DNA from: Nannobrachium achirus
Taxonomy: Eukaryota > Chordata > Actinopteri > Myctophiformes > Myctophidae
NCBI GenBank assembly: GCA_963921795.1
Contig: OY997642.1
Location: 2,755,027 to 2,819,026 of the forward strand
Length of the DNA: 64,000 nt
Direction of reading: 5' to 3'
In this document: positions 14,939 through 47,900 of the stretch, in pieces
Numbering within the stretch: position 1 is the stretch's first letter
Layout of the letters: each line of letters opens with the position of its first letter
The notes under the pieces: model-generated
The model's input: only the letters and a program-made list of their open reading frames with translations
What the model was told of the DNA's origin: nothing
Database searches by the model: none
Translations under genes and position numbers: made by a program

Positions 14939-17900
14939 CTGTAGAGGGACAAAAAACACTGTTATTATCAACTGTAGAGGGACAAAAAACACTGTAATTA
15001 TCAATACAATGCCAACTGTACACTCTGTAATTATCAATACAATTTATTGTTTCACTGTGCTTTCAGGCCAAGGACCCCTTAGTTGACAGAGAGATGAAGC
15101 AGGGACCCCTTAGTTGAGAGAGAGATGAAGCAGGGACCCCCACAACCTGTTCATAGATTCCATAATAGTTTCATTGTTTGACAGCACAATCATCAGTGTA
15201 TTTTAGATTCATGTCAATTTGTGTTTTCAGATATTTAACCACTTGAACCGTCAATACTTAATAAACCTAAGTATAGAGCATCGCAGTTGAAGCCCCAGCC
15301 CGTCCTCACTCTGGTGTCGGAAGCGTTTTCCCCATTCATTTCTTCCATAGACATTTCATAAAGTATTTATTTAAACGTTTTTAAGCCTTGGACAAAGCCA
15401 CCTCGGCTGGAGAGGAATCATGACAATAATCTATTTTTTTTTTAAAGCAATGATTAATTAGAAAGCTGGAAAAAAGGGCAGGGTACAAGACTGTGTACAT
15501 CATTATTTTTAAAATTGCGGAAACTACACTCCCAGAATGCATTGCGAATGACATTTCCTGAAATATAGCCCTTAAATCACGCTCAGTTTAGTTATCCAGG
15601 CCAGCATACGGCCTGAAATGTAGTGATTGTCATCTCTGTGGACGCTCTTATCGTCCTCCTCAACATAGTGCATCTTATTTGTAAAAGAAAGACGAACGCT
15701 CACGGAGTTCTGCTGAAGTGCAATAATCTGCCGGGCAGACAGGGGGCAGTAGCTACTTCCGTGGTAACAGCAAGATATGTGAAAGAAGAAGAAGCTAGAC
15801 CAATCACAGACGTTGATTTCACGGGATGTACATGTTTAGCAGTATGGGAAATGCAGTTCTTCTCCGTGCGATCTTGATTAGAACATGTTTTTACTAAAAC
15901 TAGAGTGATTGCATACATACTCGGGGGTTCTACAGGAGCATATAGAACCATTTTACAAACACCAGCCTAGTGGTAAGTGTACATTGAATTGCTACGACTT
16001 TGTGGCTGATAATGAAAAACCCTATGGTAAAAATAAATGGCCAGCTTGCTTCCGACACCTCACTGCGATGCTCTATTGACTCTGTACTTAGTCTGCTCTT
16101 TTTCCCCTCTACACCAAACCTCTTTTCATTTTTTAAAAAGAAAACAATGATTCTCTATGACCTCTTCTACCACTTTTTCTAGTCACATGTTCAAATACTG
16201 TATTCTGTTTAAAACAGTGGTAAATAGGCCAACAACCTTGAGTTGGCTCCTGGACCATAGTGTCGCCGTGAAAACAAGCGGATCTCGGCCTCCTCGGCGT
16301 TATTTGCACCTTATTTCGAGATAAAGCCGTTTTTATGTTTCAGCATAGAATAGGAGTCAATGGCAATTAATGATTGTAACTAAAGATCCTTGCAAGTTAC
16401 AAATGTGTTTTCTTTCATTTATATGGAAAAAAGTGGTAGAAAAGCAATTTACCATTCGAGGTCGTGGCTCTTGCCACAACCCTGAAACAGTGGTAAATCA
16501 GCCAACAACCCACTCCCTCTCATGGTAAATGGCTTACATGCACACCGGCTCTGAATTTGCCATGCGGCAGGTGGCTGCGGCTGTGCGTTTTTTTTCTTTT
16601 CTCGATCGAACCCAGTTCGATTTGTGCGTCTTGTCGCATGTGGTAAAAACTCATTGAATAGCAGGGCATGTATTGTTTGTTACCTGCACTATACAGTACC
16701 CCATCAGTGTGTAGTTAGTATAATGTATTGGTGTATTACCTGTACTATACAGTACCCCATCAGAGTGAGGTGTCGGTCTCTCATAGCTCTGTGTGTAGTA
16801 GTGTAATGTATTATTACCTGTACTATACAGTACCCCAGCAGTGTGTAGTTAGTATAATGTATTGGTGTTTGTTACCTGCACTATACAGTACCCCATCAGT
16901 GTGTAGTTAGTATAATGTATTGGTGTTTGTTACCTGCACTATACAGTACCCCAGTAGTGTGTAGTTAGTATAATGTATTGGTGTTTGTTACCTGCACTAT
17001 ACAGTACCCCATCAGAGTGTAGTTAGTGTAATGTATTGGTGTTTGTTACCTGCACTATACAGTACCCCAGTAGTGTGTAGTTAGTATAATGTATTGGTGT
17101 TTGTTACCTGCACTATACAGTACCCCATCAGTGTGTAGTTAGTGTAATGTATTGGTGTTTGTTACCTGCACTATACAGTACCCCATCAGTGTGTAGTTAG
17201 TATAATGTATTGGTGTTTGTTACCTGTACTATACAGTACCCCATCAGTGTGTAGTTAGTATAATGTATTGGTGTTTGTTACCTGCACTATACAGTACCCC
17301 ATCAGTGTGTAGTTAGTATAATGTATTGGTGTTTGTTACCTGCACTATACAGTACCCCAGTAGTGTGTAGTTAGTATAATGTATTGGTGTTTGTTACCTG
17401 CACTATACAGTACCCCATCAGTGTGTAGTTAGTGTAATGTATTGGTGTTTGTTACCTGCACTATACAGTACCCCATCAGTGTGTAGTTAGTATAATGTAT
17501 TGGTGTTTGTTACCTGTACTATACAGTACCCCATCAGTGTGTAGTTAGTATAATGTATTGGTGTTTGTTACCTGCACTATACAGTACCCCATCAGTGTGT
17601 AGTTAGTGTAATGTATTGGTGTTTGTTACCTGCACTATACAGTACCCCATCAGTGTGTAGTTAGTATAATGTATTGGTGTTTGTTACCTGCACTATACAG
17701 TACCCCATCAGTGTGTAGTTAGTATAATGTATTGGTGTTTGTTACCTGCACTATACAGTACCCCATCAGTGTGTAGTTAGTATAATGTATTGGTGTTTGT
17801 TACCTGCACTATACAGTACCCCAGTAGTGTGTAGTTAGTATAATGTATTGGTGTTTGTTACCTGCACTATACAGTACCCCATCAGTGTGTAGTTAGTGTA

Positions 17901-44900: not shown

Positions 44901-47900
44901 TATGGGCATGAGGGGTACCCTAAAAGGGCATCATCTGGGAATAGCAAATATAGTTATCCTAGAAAGTGAAAATCTTACATCAAAGGCCATAACTACCTAC
45001 CTACCACCATACTGCATTCCTCATTAAACTACCTACCAGTAAGATGCCTATAGGGAGAAAAGCAAAGGGCGAGGTTGCACCATTTCTTGGTCTTCTGGCC
45101 AGTGATGTATATCGGACCATTTAACCATATATGGAGACATCTGGTACCCAAAGATATTCACAGATATGGGCTTAATATTGATGACATAAGGGATCTCCAT
45201 ATATGGGCGTAAAAGGGATTTGGTTCCCCTGGCATCACAGGGATCTCCATATATGGGCATAAAATGGATTTGGTTACCCTGGCAACACGGGGATCTCCAT
45301 ATCTCCATATATGGGCATAAAAGGGATTTGGTTCCCCTGGCATCACAGGGATCTCCATATATGGGCATAAAAGGGATTTGGTTCCCCTGACATTACAGTG
45401 ATGTCAGTGGCTGGTTCTACAGAGGGGATCTCCATTTATGGGCATAAAAGGGAATGTATGTATGATGATGTCAGATATCATAGACGTCATAGGACTTTCA
45501 CATAACGAATAACTGAGTAAGCATGTAAACCCGTAAAATCTATATTTGGGCATGGCTGATTTATGACCTCATCATGATGACACGAGCAAACACAGCTGAA
45601 TTGTATAAATGATCAGTTCAGAAACCAACAGAAGTATTTGACCAAGACTCTTCGATTTAAACATCAACAAAGGTGTGACGTTTGTTGATGGTCACAAAGG
45701 TGTGACGGACGGACGGACGGACGGACGGCCGGTGGAGGTTTTCATAGTAAACTGCTCCCTGACGGTCGCAATAATACCATCAACACCACCCTAGAGTCAC
45801 TGGGAAGACCTGGAGAATAACCATAAAAATATCATCAACACCACCCTAGAGTCAAATATCATCAACAACACCCCGGAGTCACTAAGAGAATAAACATAAC
45901 CATAAAAATATCATCAACAACACGACACGCGGGAGTCACTGGGAAGACCTGAGAGAATGAATATAATATCATCAACACTACCCTAGAGTCACTGGGAAGA
46001 CCTGAGAGAATGAATCCCATTAACACATTGAGGAGGGACAGCAGCTTCTTCAAATGTCCCCCACTCGTGCCACGGCACCATGGAGGTGACGCAGGTGAAA
46101 TGTTAACCTGCCGAAGATACGGAGCGCCGGGAGGTAGCACCTAAAGGGAGGTAGCACCTAAAGGGAGGAAGCACCTAAAGGGAGGTAGCACCTAAAGGGA
46201 GGTAGCACCTAAAGGGAGGTAGCACCTAAAGGGAGGTAGCACCTAAAGGGAGGTAGCACCTAAAGGGAGGTAGCACCTAAAGGGAGGTAGCACCTAAAGG
46301 GAGGTAGCACCTAAAGGGAGGTAGCACCTAAAGGGAGGTAGCACCTAAAGGGAGGTAGCACCTAAAGGGAGGTAGCACCTAAAGGGAGGTAGCACCTAAA
46401 GGGAGGTAGCACCTAAAGGGAGGTAGCACCTAAAGGGAGGTAGCACCTAAAGGGAGGTAGCACCTAAAGGGAGGTAGCACCTAAAGGGAGGTAGCACCTA
46501 AAGGGAGGTAGCACCTAAAGGGAGGTAGCACCTAAAGGGGGGTAGCACCTAAAGGGAGGTAGCACCTAAAGGGAGGTAGCACCTAAAGGGAGGTAGCACC
46601 TAAAGGGAGGTAGCACCTAAAGGGAGGTAGCACCTAAAGGGGGGTAGCACCTAAAGGGAGGTAGCACCTAAAGGGAGGTAGCACCTAAAGGGAGGTAGCA
46701 CCTAAAGGGAGGTAGCACCTAAAGGGAGGTAGCACCTAAAGGGAGGTAGCACCTAAAGGGAGGTAGCACCTAAAGGGAGGTAGCACCTAAAGGGAGGTAG
46801 CACCTAAAGGGAGGTAGCACCTAAAGGGAGGAAGCACCTAAAGGGAGGAAGCACCTAAAGGGAGGTAGCACCTAAAGGGAGGTAGCACCTAAAGGGAGGT
46901 AGCACCTAAAGGGAGGAAGCACCTAAAGGGAGGAAGCACCTAAAGGGAGGTAGCACCTAAAGGGAGGTAGCACCTAAAGGGAGGTAGCACCTAAAGGGAG
47001 GTAGCACCTAAAGGGAGGTAGCACCTAAAGGGAGGTAGCACCTAAAGGGAGGTAGCACCTAAAGGGAGGTAGCACCTAAAGGGAGGAAGCACCTAAAGGG
47101 AGGTAGCACCTAAAGGGAGGTAGCACCTAAAGGGAGGTAGCACCTAAAGGGAGGTAGCACCTAAAGGGAGGTAGCACCTAAAGGGAGGTAGCACCTAAAG
47201 GGAGGTAGCACCTAAAGGGAGGTAGCACCTAAAGCAAAACCTTAACCCAAACCTCAGTAAAACTAACGTGGGTGAATATCTAACCTGCCGCGTTCTTTCA
47301 CTCAGAACAGAAAAATAATCGTGGCCATCAGTGCTTTAGTAAAGGCCGGTAGAGAAGGGCTGGTTTTAAACATGAACGTGATTTAAAAGTTAGATTAGGA
47401 GTTAAATGCACTTTTGTAAATCTCATAACACTGCTGTCTATGAGGGATCCAAGACTTCCTGGTCACGTTGACGCGCGGGTTGATTTTATTTAACCCTTCA
47501 AATGCCAAAAAGCCGAACTAGTTCGCCTTTTTGTCGGCTAGCGACGCAATCCGGAGTGCCGATCCTGAACTAGTTCTAGAACTAGTAGCGACGCACGGCT
47601 TTAGTCCTTACCTGTGAGCTGATTATTGAAGCTGTATATGGTCCGAGGGCCGCCGTTGTTTACCGCGAACGCCGTCGTTGTTTTCCGCGGATTTATTCAA
47701 TGTAATCCAATGCAGATGGCCAACTATAAGCCCCATTTCTCAGATTTTATGCTTTTCCGGAAGTGGACAGCCTTTATTCGCGGCCAAATAGCCGAAAAAA
47801 GTGCTTCTAACAATAACATTGGCCTAGAGGAAATGAAAGCCAAGGCCTTCCTTCCGGCATAGTGATGACACGCACGCAAGTCATCGCGCACGTCAATGCA

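Follow-up and report, generated by a model that had tools for sequence, protein, structure and literature searches.

Tandem repeats spanning splice borders in fastk and in a neighbouring SLC4-family gene of Nannobrachium achirus

The fastk locus

The window, the whole stretch of 64,000 nucleotides analysed here, comes from the myctophid fish Nannobrachium achirus (C5:2755027-2819026, in a 1.66-Gb assembly of 564 contigs, those up to C24 being chromosome-sized at 49-90 Mb). It contains the gene fastk, many of whose exon-intron borders recur as copies in the adjoining introns, mostly within tandem arrays. The splice phases of the fastk exons match, and the joined open frame encodes 926 amino acids (aa). 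Profile searches gave a match to FAST_1 on exon 8 and, on the joined exons, to FAST_2 on exons 9-11 (63.8 bits) and RAP on exons 13-15 (59.4 bits). The modelled start of exon 1 (53590-53640) runs into the end of a dispersed element that recurs near 10760, 13783 and 48795; the gene may have its real acceptor at about 53576, with additional exons upstream of the modelled exon 1. No Pfam match at E 0.01 pointed to a second gene among 68 open reading frames (ORFs) picked from both ends of the window.

Duplicated splice borders in fastk

All borders were compared with the same strand of the gene, copies within arrays were listed, and the exons were compared with the whole window. Nine of the 28 internal borders, four acceptors and five donors, have a nearby copy (Table 1, where borders are named by exon, E5 to E15). 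This bears out the original prediction, made from the sequence alone, that nine borders are duplicated. Eight of them lie in tandem arrays of 2 to 55 copies, and the ninth is the E6 donor. The repeat units include 3 to 94 exon bases, the predicted range of 3 to about 85 being right at its lower end only.

Several arrays have an internal structure of their own. The spacing of the E14 donor array is irregular at one 85-bp and one 78-bp step, the E9 acceptor array shows a higher-order period of 457 bp, and the E9 donor array consists of eight 41-bp copies distributed over two blocks. An 8-bp direct repeat, CCCCTCTG, bounds both ends of the E12 donor array. The E6 donor has only one additional copy, displaced by 671 bp. 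The possibility that the claim for this border was false, Tandem Repeats Finder (TRF) and the first border search both being blank, was rejected when the exon-wide search found the copy. Since the two copies are separated by a foldback element that is also present in fastk intron 1 (51699-52312, found by self-comparison), the E6 donor is read as a plain two-copy duplication that was later split.

Among the matches listed, up to six spanning ones per border, border windows compared with the fastk gene had spanning copies only in their own array or as displaced copies. The opposite border of each affected intron has either no copy or a copy in a different unit (E9 donor and E10 acceptor; E14 donor and E15 acceptor). 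The arrays are placed on the intronic side and the exons themselves are complete, so that each exon end retains a full border. The duplications are not confined to borders, since an in-frame duplication sits inside exon 12.

Table 1. Positions in the window of fastk and of the duplications in it, followed by border units of the SLC4-family gene on contig C5; a slash marks the exon-intron border
Feature	Position	Strand	Sequence at the border
fastk gene (15 exons in this model, 28 internal borders, one joined frame)	53618-14840	minus	
E15 acceptor array, 33-bp x2	14936..15004	minus	TTTTTTGTCCCTCTACAG/TTG
E14 donor array, 58-bp x28	16671..18346	minus	..GTGCAG/GTAACA
E12 donor array, 69-bp x55, fused to AGAT tract	20895..24657	minus	..GGAGCAGCAG/GTAGGAG
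Exon 12 internal duplication, 54-bp x2, coding, in frame, borderless	24688..24795	minus	
E10 donor array, 33/43-bp x6	25778..26002	minus	GGTTATTTTACAG/GTAATAATC
E10 acceptor array, 42-bp x5	26060..26251	minus	GTTATGTGTCAG/TTATA
E9 donor copies, distal block, 41-bp array	26517..26777	minus	
E9 donor itself and first copy, 41-bp x2	27004..27081	minus	CCGCAAGTACAG/GTACGTTGG
E9 acceptor array, 51-bp x26	27207..28541	minus	CTCCTACAG/ACAGTCCG..
E6 donor region, second copy, 27 bp of exon 6 (96%) then border	42142..42168	minus	CAG/GTA
Foldback transposable element, 585 bp, inverted ends, between both E6 donor copies	42187..42771		
E5 acceptor duplication, 118-bp x2, including 94 exon bases	44240..44461	minus	
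E5 acceptor, three short displaced copies, about 1.5 kb upstream of exon	45794..46015	minus	
SLC4-family gene, exon B acceptor unit			TTCTCCACAG/GTATCCTCAG
SLC4-family gene, C donor unit			GAGGCCTACTACTCT/GTGAGT
SLC4-family gene, E donor unit			CCCTGGAAAG/GTGCGT
SLC4-family gene, I donor unit			CTGCTAGTCG/GTAAAT; later copies GTAG/GTAAAT
SLC4-family gene, J acceptor unit			TTGTATTGTAG/GTCTATC
SLC4-family gene, J donor unit			TATATACGCAAG/GTAAAT

Comparison with random placement

Non-microsatellite TRF arrays were counted at a score of 50 or more and a unit length over 10 bp. The 28 arrays of fastk were reduced to 24 events by removing two exonic arrays, merging the E9-donor blocks, merging two rows of E5 copies into E5 and adding the E6 donor. 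Under the null model, a seed of the same unit length was placed at random in the same intron, and the frequency with which it included a border was recorded. Nine of the 24 events include a border, against 0.96 expected on the present intron lengths (P 5e-8) and 1.8 expected once the arrays are collapsed (P 8e-6 to 1.1e-5), which upholds the earlier claim that the junction hits are too many for random placement. When the dispersed repeats of the window are removed as well and the four arrays inside them dropped, nine of 20 events remain border hits (2.0 expected, P 1.6e-5), or eight of 19 without the E6 donor (P 9e-5). Of the nine hits among 20 events, introns 8-10 alone contribute four among five (P 0.006), and the rest of the gene five among 15 (0.95 expected, P 0.0012). 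A cruder point test, in which a spanning copy was sought within 3 kb (<=3 kb), found one at 7/28 fastk borders and at 31/600 intronic points; it missed the E6 and E15 borders and agrees in size only.

The border arrays had also been said to make up most of the intronic tandem repeats. This is true by bases (7,697 of 10,194 bp of intronic array) and untrue by number of events, and the arrays without a border are not the three named as exceptions (17-, 45- and 61-bp units) but 15, several of them weak two-copy calls.

Reading frame and conservation of the copies

For six of the eight fastk arrays, the frame is kept by the exon-proximal copy only. None of the non-proximal copies keeps it at the E14 donor (0/27), E12 donor (0/54), E10 donor (0/5), E9 donor (0/7), E9 acceptor (0/25) or E5 acceptor (0/4); copies with insertions or deletions (indels) in the arrays other than those of the E9 and E5 acceptors could be off by one base, but all reach early stops. 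The E10 and E15 acceptor arrays are in frame and free of stops; each upstream copy at E10 would add 14 aa, and the single upstream copy at E15 would add 11 aa. Judged from its sequence, the E10 acceptor array is a possible coding length polymorphism. One extra copy lowers the FAST_2 score from 63.8 to 54.1 bits (E10 acceptor) and the RAP score from 59.4 to 46.7 bits (E15 acceptor), and for this reason the exon-proximal site is probably ancestral at both acceptors.

None of the 106 phased units in the three large arrays has lost its GT or AG (E14 donor 27/27 intact, E12 donor 54/54, E9 acceptor 25/25); the splice site is lost in some copies of the E9 and E10 donors. Conservation of the splice blocks in the large arrays does not exceed that of other 9-bp blocks (ranks 20/58, 25/69 and 21/51), so nothing that we see points to selection on the extra sites in either direction. 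The exon share of a unit ranges from 0.09 to 0.80, which fits random breakpoints and tends to be low (Kolmogorov-Smirnov P 0.10, n=8, low power).

An SLC4-family gene on the same contig

A second gene was sought because slc4a2, as we assume, lies near FASTK in vertebrates, an assumption on which the name slc4a2-like would also rest. A gene of the SLC4 family (PF00955) is found at C5:2526670-2542450, 227 kb from fastk, and was chosen before its arrays were seen. Five of its 17 TRF arrays span one of its 19 recognised borders, against 1.15 expected (P 0.0036). The borders spanned by interval are the B acceptor, E donor, I donor, J acceptor and J donor; copies of the B, C and D donors were found by homology or by reading, which brings the number of copied borders to eight of 19 for all three means combined. 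At the C donor the TRF array starts 11 bases past the donor, yet its units repeat the exon tail. The F donor array, which starts 7 bases into the intron, was not counted. Displaced copies occur for the B donor, C donor, D donor and J acceptor units. In the two overlapping loci that cover this gene (L075/L076, C5:2524001-2544000), arrays of the gene's own borders lie displaced by 2.5-3.4 kb, beyond other exons (reverse complement index 52-398 and 13725-13820).

Other loci of the genome

A genome-wide test for an excess of border hits had been proposed as a check, and about 0.3 Mb of genome sequence was sampled for an out-of-sample test. In a 60-kb stretch with a fibrillin-like gene on C1 (41 EGF exons with crisp phase-1 borders, 81 borders recognised), none of 20 arrays spans a border by more than two bases, against 0.92 expected; one array begins exactly at a donor GT. 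Border-sized BLAST repeats in this gene sit at exon spacing and are read, from their sequence, as paralogous EGF exons. At other EGF loci (27 of 30 used, three lying in the fibrillin-like gene) none of 25 arrays spans one of 43 borders, against 0.26 expected for the 22 loci in which borders were recognised; the five loci without a recognisable border hold nine of these arrays. At SLC4 loci elsewhere (28 of 30 used, two from a single-exon copy being excluded) one of 29 arrays spans a border, against 0.74 expected, assuming two borders per locus and with the expectation taken from 27 arrays called on the other strand. Some arrays enter these counts more than once because their loci overlap (L052/L071, L012/L013). 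No excess is seen at the loci sampled, and a genome-wide rule is rejected within the sample.

The one spanning array is a two-copy donor-spanning duplication at an SLC4 locus (L052, C21:42504273-42504548), and a similar one at another SLC4 locus (L066, C6:25046714-25046914) was missed by TRF and found by homology; border-spanning duplications hence occur in isolation elsewhere in the genome too. Three SLC4 loci near another contig end (C15, 2.1-3.4 Mb) had no border copies. An array-level Fisher test with 1/74 elsewhere (P 3e-7) is not relied on, as it understates the rest of the genome, where L066 was missed. A uniform measure counts the exons of which part is copied on the same strand no more than 1.5 kb away. 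These are 6/15 in fastk and 6/11 in the SLC4-family gene of C5 (one a weak 15-bp hit), compared with 0/41 in the fibrillin-like gene (paralogous exons set aside), 3/27 at EGF loci and 3/28 at other SLC4 loci. The two C5 genes together (12/26) differ from the loci elsewhere (6/96, a figure that includes L066, a whole-exon duplication counted twice as L012 and L013, the intron-poor L038 and a 15-bp hit at L073) with a Fisher P of 6e-6. With the weak hit dropped, the SLC4-family gene alone (5/11) still differs from the rest (Fisher P 0.0015) and from other SLC4 loci (3/28, Fisher P 0.028). The border bias is real but local.

Other elements of the window and genome

Intron 7 of fastk holds two intronless kelch-repeat copies on the minus strand (30505-31602 and 34777-37228, 89-91% alike), which we take to be klhdc3-like; the former has an intact 365-aa frame with a KLHDC2-type kelch domain (Pfam), and the latter is split. 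A long interspersed nuclear element (LINE) on the minus strand (54892-58683 and 61048-62004) has an open ORF of 1263 aa, whose endonuclease and reverse transcriptase matches are weak and below the cut-offs of those models, and an upstream 318-aa ORF with no match. A dispersed repeat occurs in opposite orientations at 15069-15266 and 63577-64000, with about two and nearly 10 copies, respectively, of a 31-bp tandem unit. No ArfGap gene was found nearby, and a search of viral contigs found no relative.

At L012/L013 (C5:56846812-56847637) a whole 120-bp EGF exon is duplicated 706 bp apart with 100% identity. Repeated EGF_CA genes are clustered at C13:16256384-16570845, and many of them have open frames of 572-839 aa. 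For Cpn60_TCP1, considered as a germline-active control, positions alone were obtained: eight matches (C1, C5, C6, C9, C10, C13, C14 and C19) cover nearly the full profile in single frames of 539-597 aa and, by their sequence, are presumably retrocopies or intronless genes.

Comparison with described systems

The original prediction knew of no described system of this kind, but tandem duplications of exon-intron boundaries have been published in amphioxus under the name of 'mirages', in Adh3 and in the globin genes BflGb6 and BflGb9 (PMC3087553). According to the available part of that report, their units measure 10-160 bp, donors and acceptors are both concerned, AG/GT is kept in many copies, and regular splicing is undisturbed by reverse transcription PCR. 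The fastk arrays resemble them in that minisatellite units span the boundary (at eight of 28 borders, plus the split two-copy case), in that both 5' and 3' boundaries are affected, and in that many but not all copies keep AG/GT. Unlike the mirages described in that part of the report, they concern about a third of the borders in a gene and its neighbour, reach up to 55 copies, occur in a 1.66-Gb fish genome, and show a tested excess over random placement.

Other systems are less close. The minisatellite of human IFI6 (G1P3) provides multiple splice donors at an exon end, with downstream copies in use (Turri 1995, via PMC4526556). As in fastk, its units carry exon-end donors; as far as that excerpt goes, a single border is involved, and alternative use is reported. 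Among human internal tandem repeats, minisatellite expansion at boundaries alters exon-intron structure, with 27 intron modifications (PMC2812944); these differ, in the portion available, in being recent paralogues in segmental duplications, found via exons with variable repeats. In UBC and VCX3A, splice motifs are repeated along with the tandem unit, as in fastk, and expansions are thought tolerable since they are spliced out (PMC10809524). There, however, the sites are dual-specific: as the accessible text has it, the same AGGT is used both as a donor and as an acceptor, and intron length is a multiple of the unit, whereas in fastk the opposite end of an affected intron does not repeat the unit. 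A review covers the gain of introns through tandem duplication (PMC3443670, consulted in extract); unlike gain by AGGT duplication, the ends of the affected fastk introns are not copies of one shared repeated site. Unlike introners, no same element recurs across many fastk introns among the matches listed. In fish, the introns of MSTN-2 and GH of gilthead sea bream hold polymorphic repeated blocks, one allele having a predicted extra acceptor (PMC3045353); intron repeats in fish genes are a shared feature, and the part of that report available mentions no border-spanning unit.

The kind of structure is thus already known. No description of its density, its replication in a neighbouring gene or the lack of an excess elsewhere in the sample was found in the open-licence full-text literature searched, where absence proves nothing.

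Possible origins of the arrays

The reading that we favour, with a probability of roughly 0.7, is that the arrays are mirages: local duplications straddling a border, tolerated and later amplified, with a local cause that raises their birth rate. A local duplication would first arise with breakpoints on either side of a splice border and would then be amplified into a minisatellite by slippage and unequal exchange. The spliceosome, to go by the frame analysis, would keep to the exon-adjacent copy, which gives the shortest exon; because this nearest copy would stay in use, the extra sites can be seen as tolerated rather than selected. The local property may be the chromosome-end region or germ-line transcription of both genes. 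The displaced copies (E5 acceptor; B, C and D donors and J acceptor of the SLC4-family gene) suggest template switching besides simple slippage. The idea that such duplications are harmless because one full border remains agrees in outline with the frame and with the FAST_2 and RAP scores; it cannot by itself account for an excess over pure intron DNA.

Several points weigh against this reading. The border hypothesis arose on fastk itself, and only the SLC4-family gene is therefore an unbiased test; there the interval count alone gives five borders, not eight. The control sample is small and consists of other gene classes. Upstream copies of the E10 acceptor (4/4) and the E15 acceptor (1/1) keep the frame and could be used. 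Flanking microhomology is clear at one of seven arrays compared (E12 donor, 8 bp, P 0.0085 uncorrected), a comparison in which at least two of the other arrays ran into array copies and were hence uninformative.

The excess might also be a matter of geometry. If the introns were very short at the time of duplication, duplications of 30-120 bp would often have taken in a border, and transposons would have lengthened the introns later. Uniform introns of 150 bp give 9.2 expected hits among 24, those of 200 bp 7.3 (P 0.28 for nine) and those of 300 bp 5.2 (P 0.05); former introns of 200 or 300 bp make this a serious rival, and random placement suffices for fastk only with a former mean intron of about 300 bp or less. 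Introns 8-11 measure 236-574 bp once arrays and dispersed repeats are removed, and the breakpoint phase looks random, but introns 4, 6, 12 and 14 still measure 910-2156 bp, the hits outside introns 8-10 remain in excess, and the SLC4-family gene shows the same pattern with introns of 0.7-3.5 kb, arrays included. As the mask covered only families with two copies in the window, the true ancestral introns could be shorter. On balance we regard this explanation as rather unlikely. Much the same standing is given to mutagenesis linked to splicing or transcription, in which breaks or template switches (through R-loops, stalled polymerase or RNA-templated repair) would favour the junctions of genes transcribed in the germ line. 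It is consistent with a border excess in fastk and the SLC4-family gene, both presumably broadly expressed, and none in EGF-domain genes, and with displaced copies that are not head to tail; the breakpoints, however, fall at no constant distance from the splice site (n=8). Because the two genes are neighbours, an effect of region cannot be told from one of expression; the C15 loci speak a little against a plain chromosome-end effect, on a tiny sample.

Selection could retain the extra sites as a back-up, for isoform variety through the in-frame additions of 14 and 11 aa, or as U1-binding arrays. The intact GT or AG of all phased units in the large arrays and the two stop-free acceptor arrays would fit, yet the splice blocks are conserved no more than their surroundings, the site is missing from some copies of the E9 and E10 donors, and in six of eight arrays any alternative copy would disrupt the frame; we consider such selection very improbable. 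We attach even less credence to misassembly as the source of the repeats or of their number. The window does contain a 200-base gap of N, and in amphioxus the draft genome had one mirage wrongly assembled, as stated in the available part of PMC3087553, but the units differ by substitutions and indels, the E9 acceptor array has its higher-order period, one duplication is split by a transposable element, and the structure recurs in the gene 227 kb away. Array copy numbers may still be wrong.

Implications

Mirages have so far been reported in a few amphioxus genes (PMC3087553, in the part available), and here they concern a third of the borders in two neighbouring genes, and few of those sampled elsewhere in the genome. 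It is conceivable, if doubtful, that the junctions themselves are a hot spot at which a process coupled to transcription or splicing copies borders locally, both head to tail and into neighbouring introns; if so, in some genes or regions a third of all borders would turn into splice-site arrays and the introns would be steadily lengthened. With the fastk and SLC4-family genes, the cause of splice-border duplication can be approached. Their arrays also raise the questions of how a single site is selected by the spliceosome when up to 55 are nearly equivalent, and whether arrays of this sort contribute to the growth of introns or to new segments of exons.

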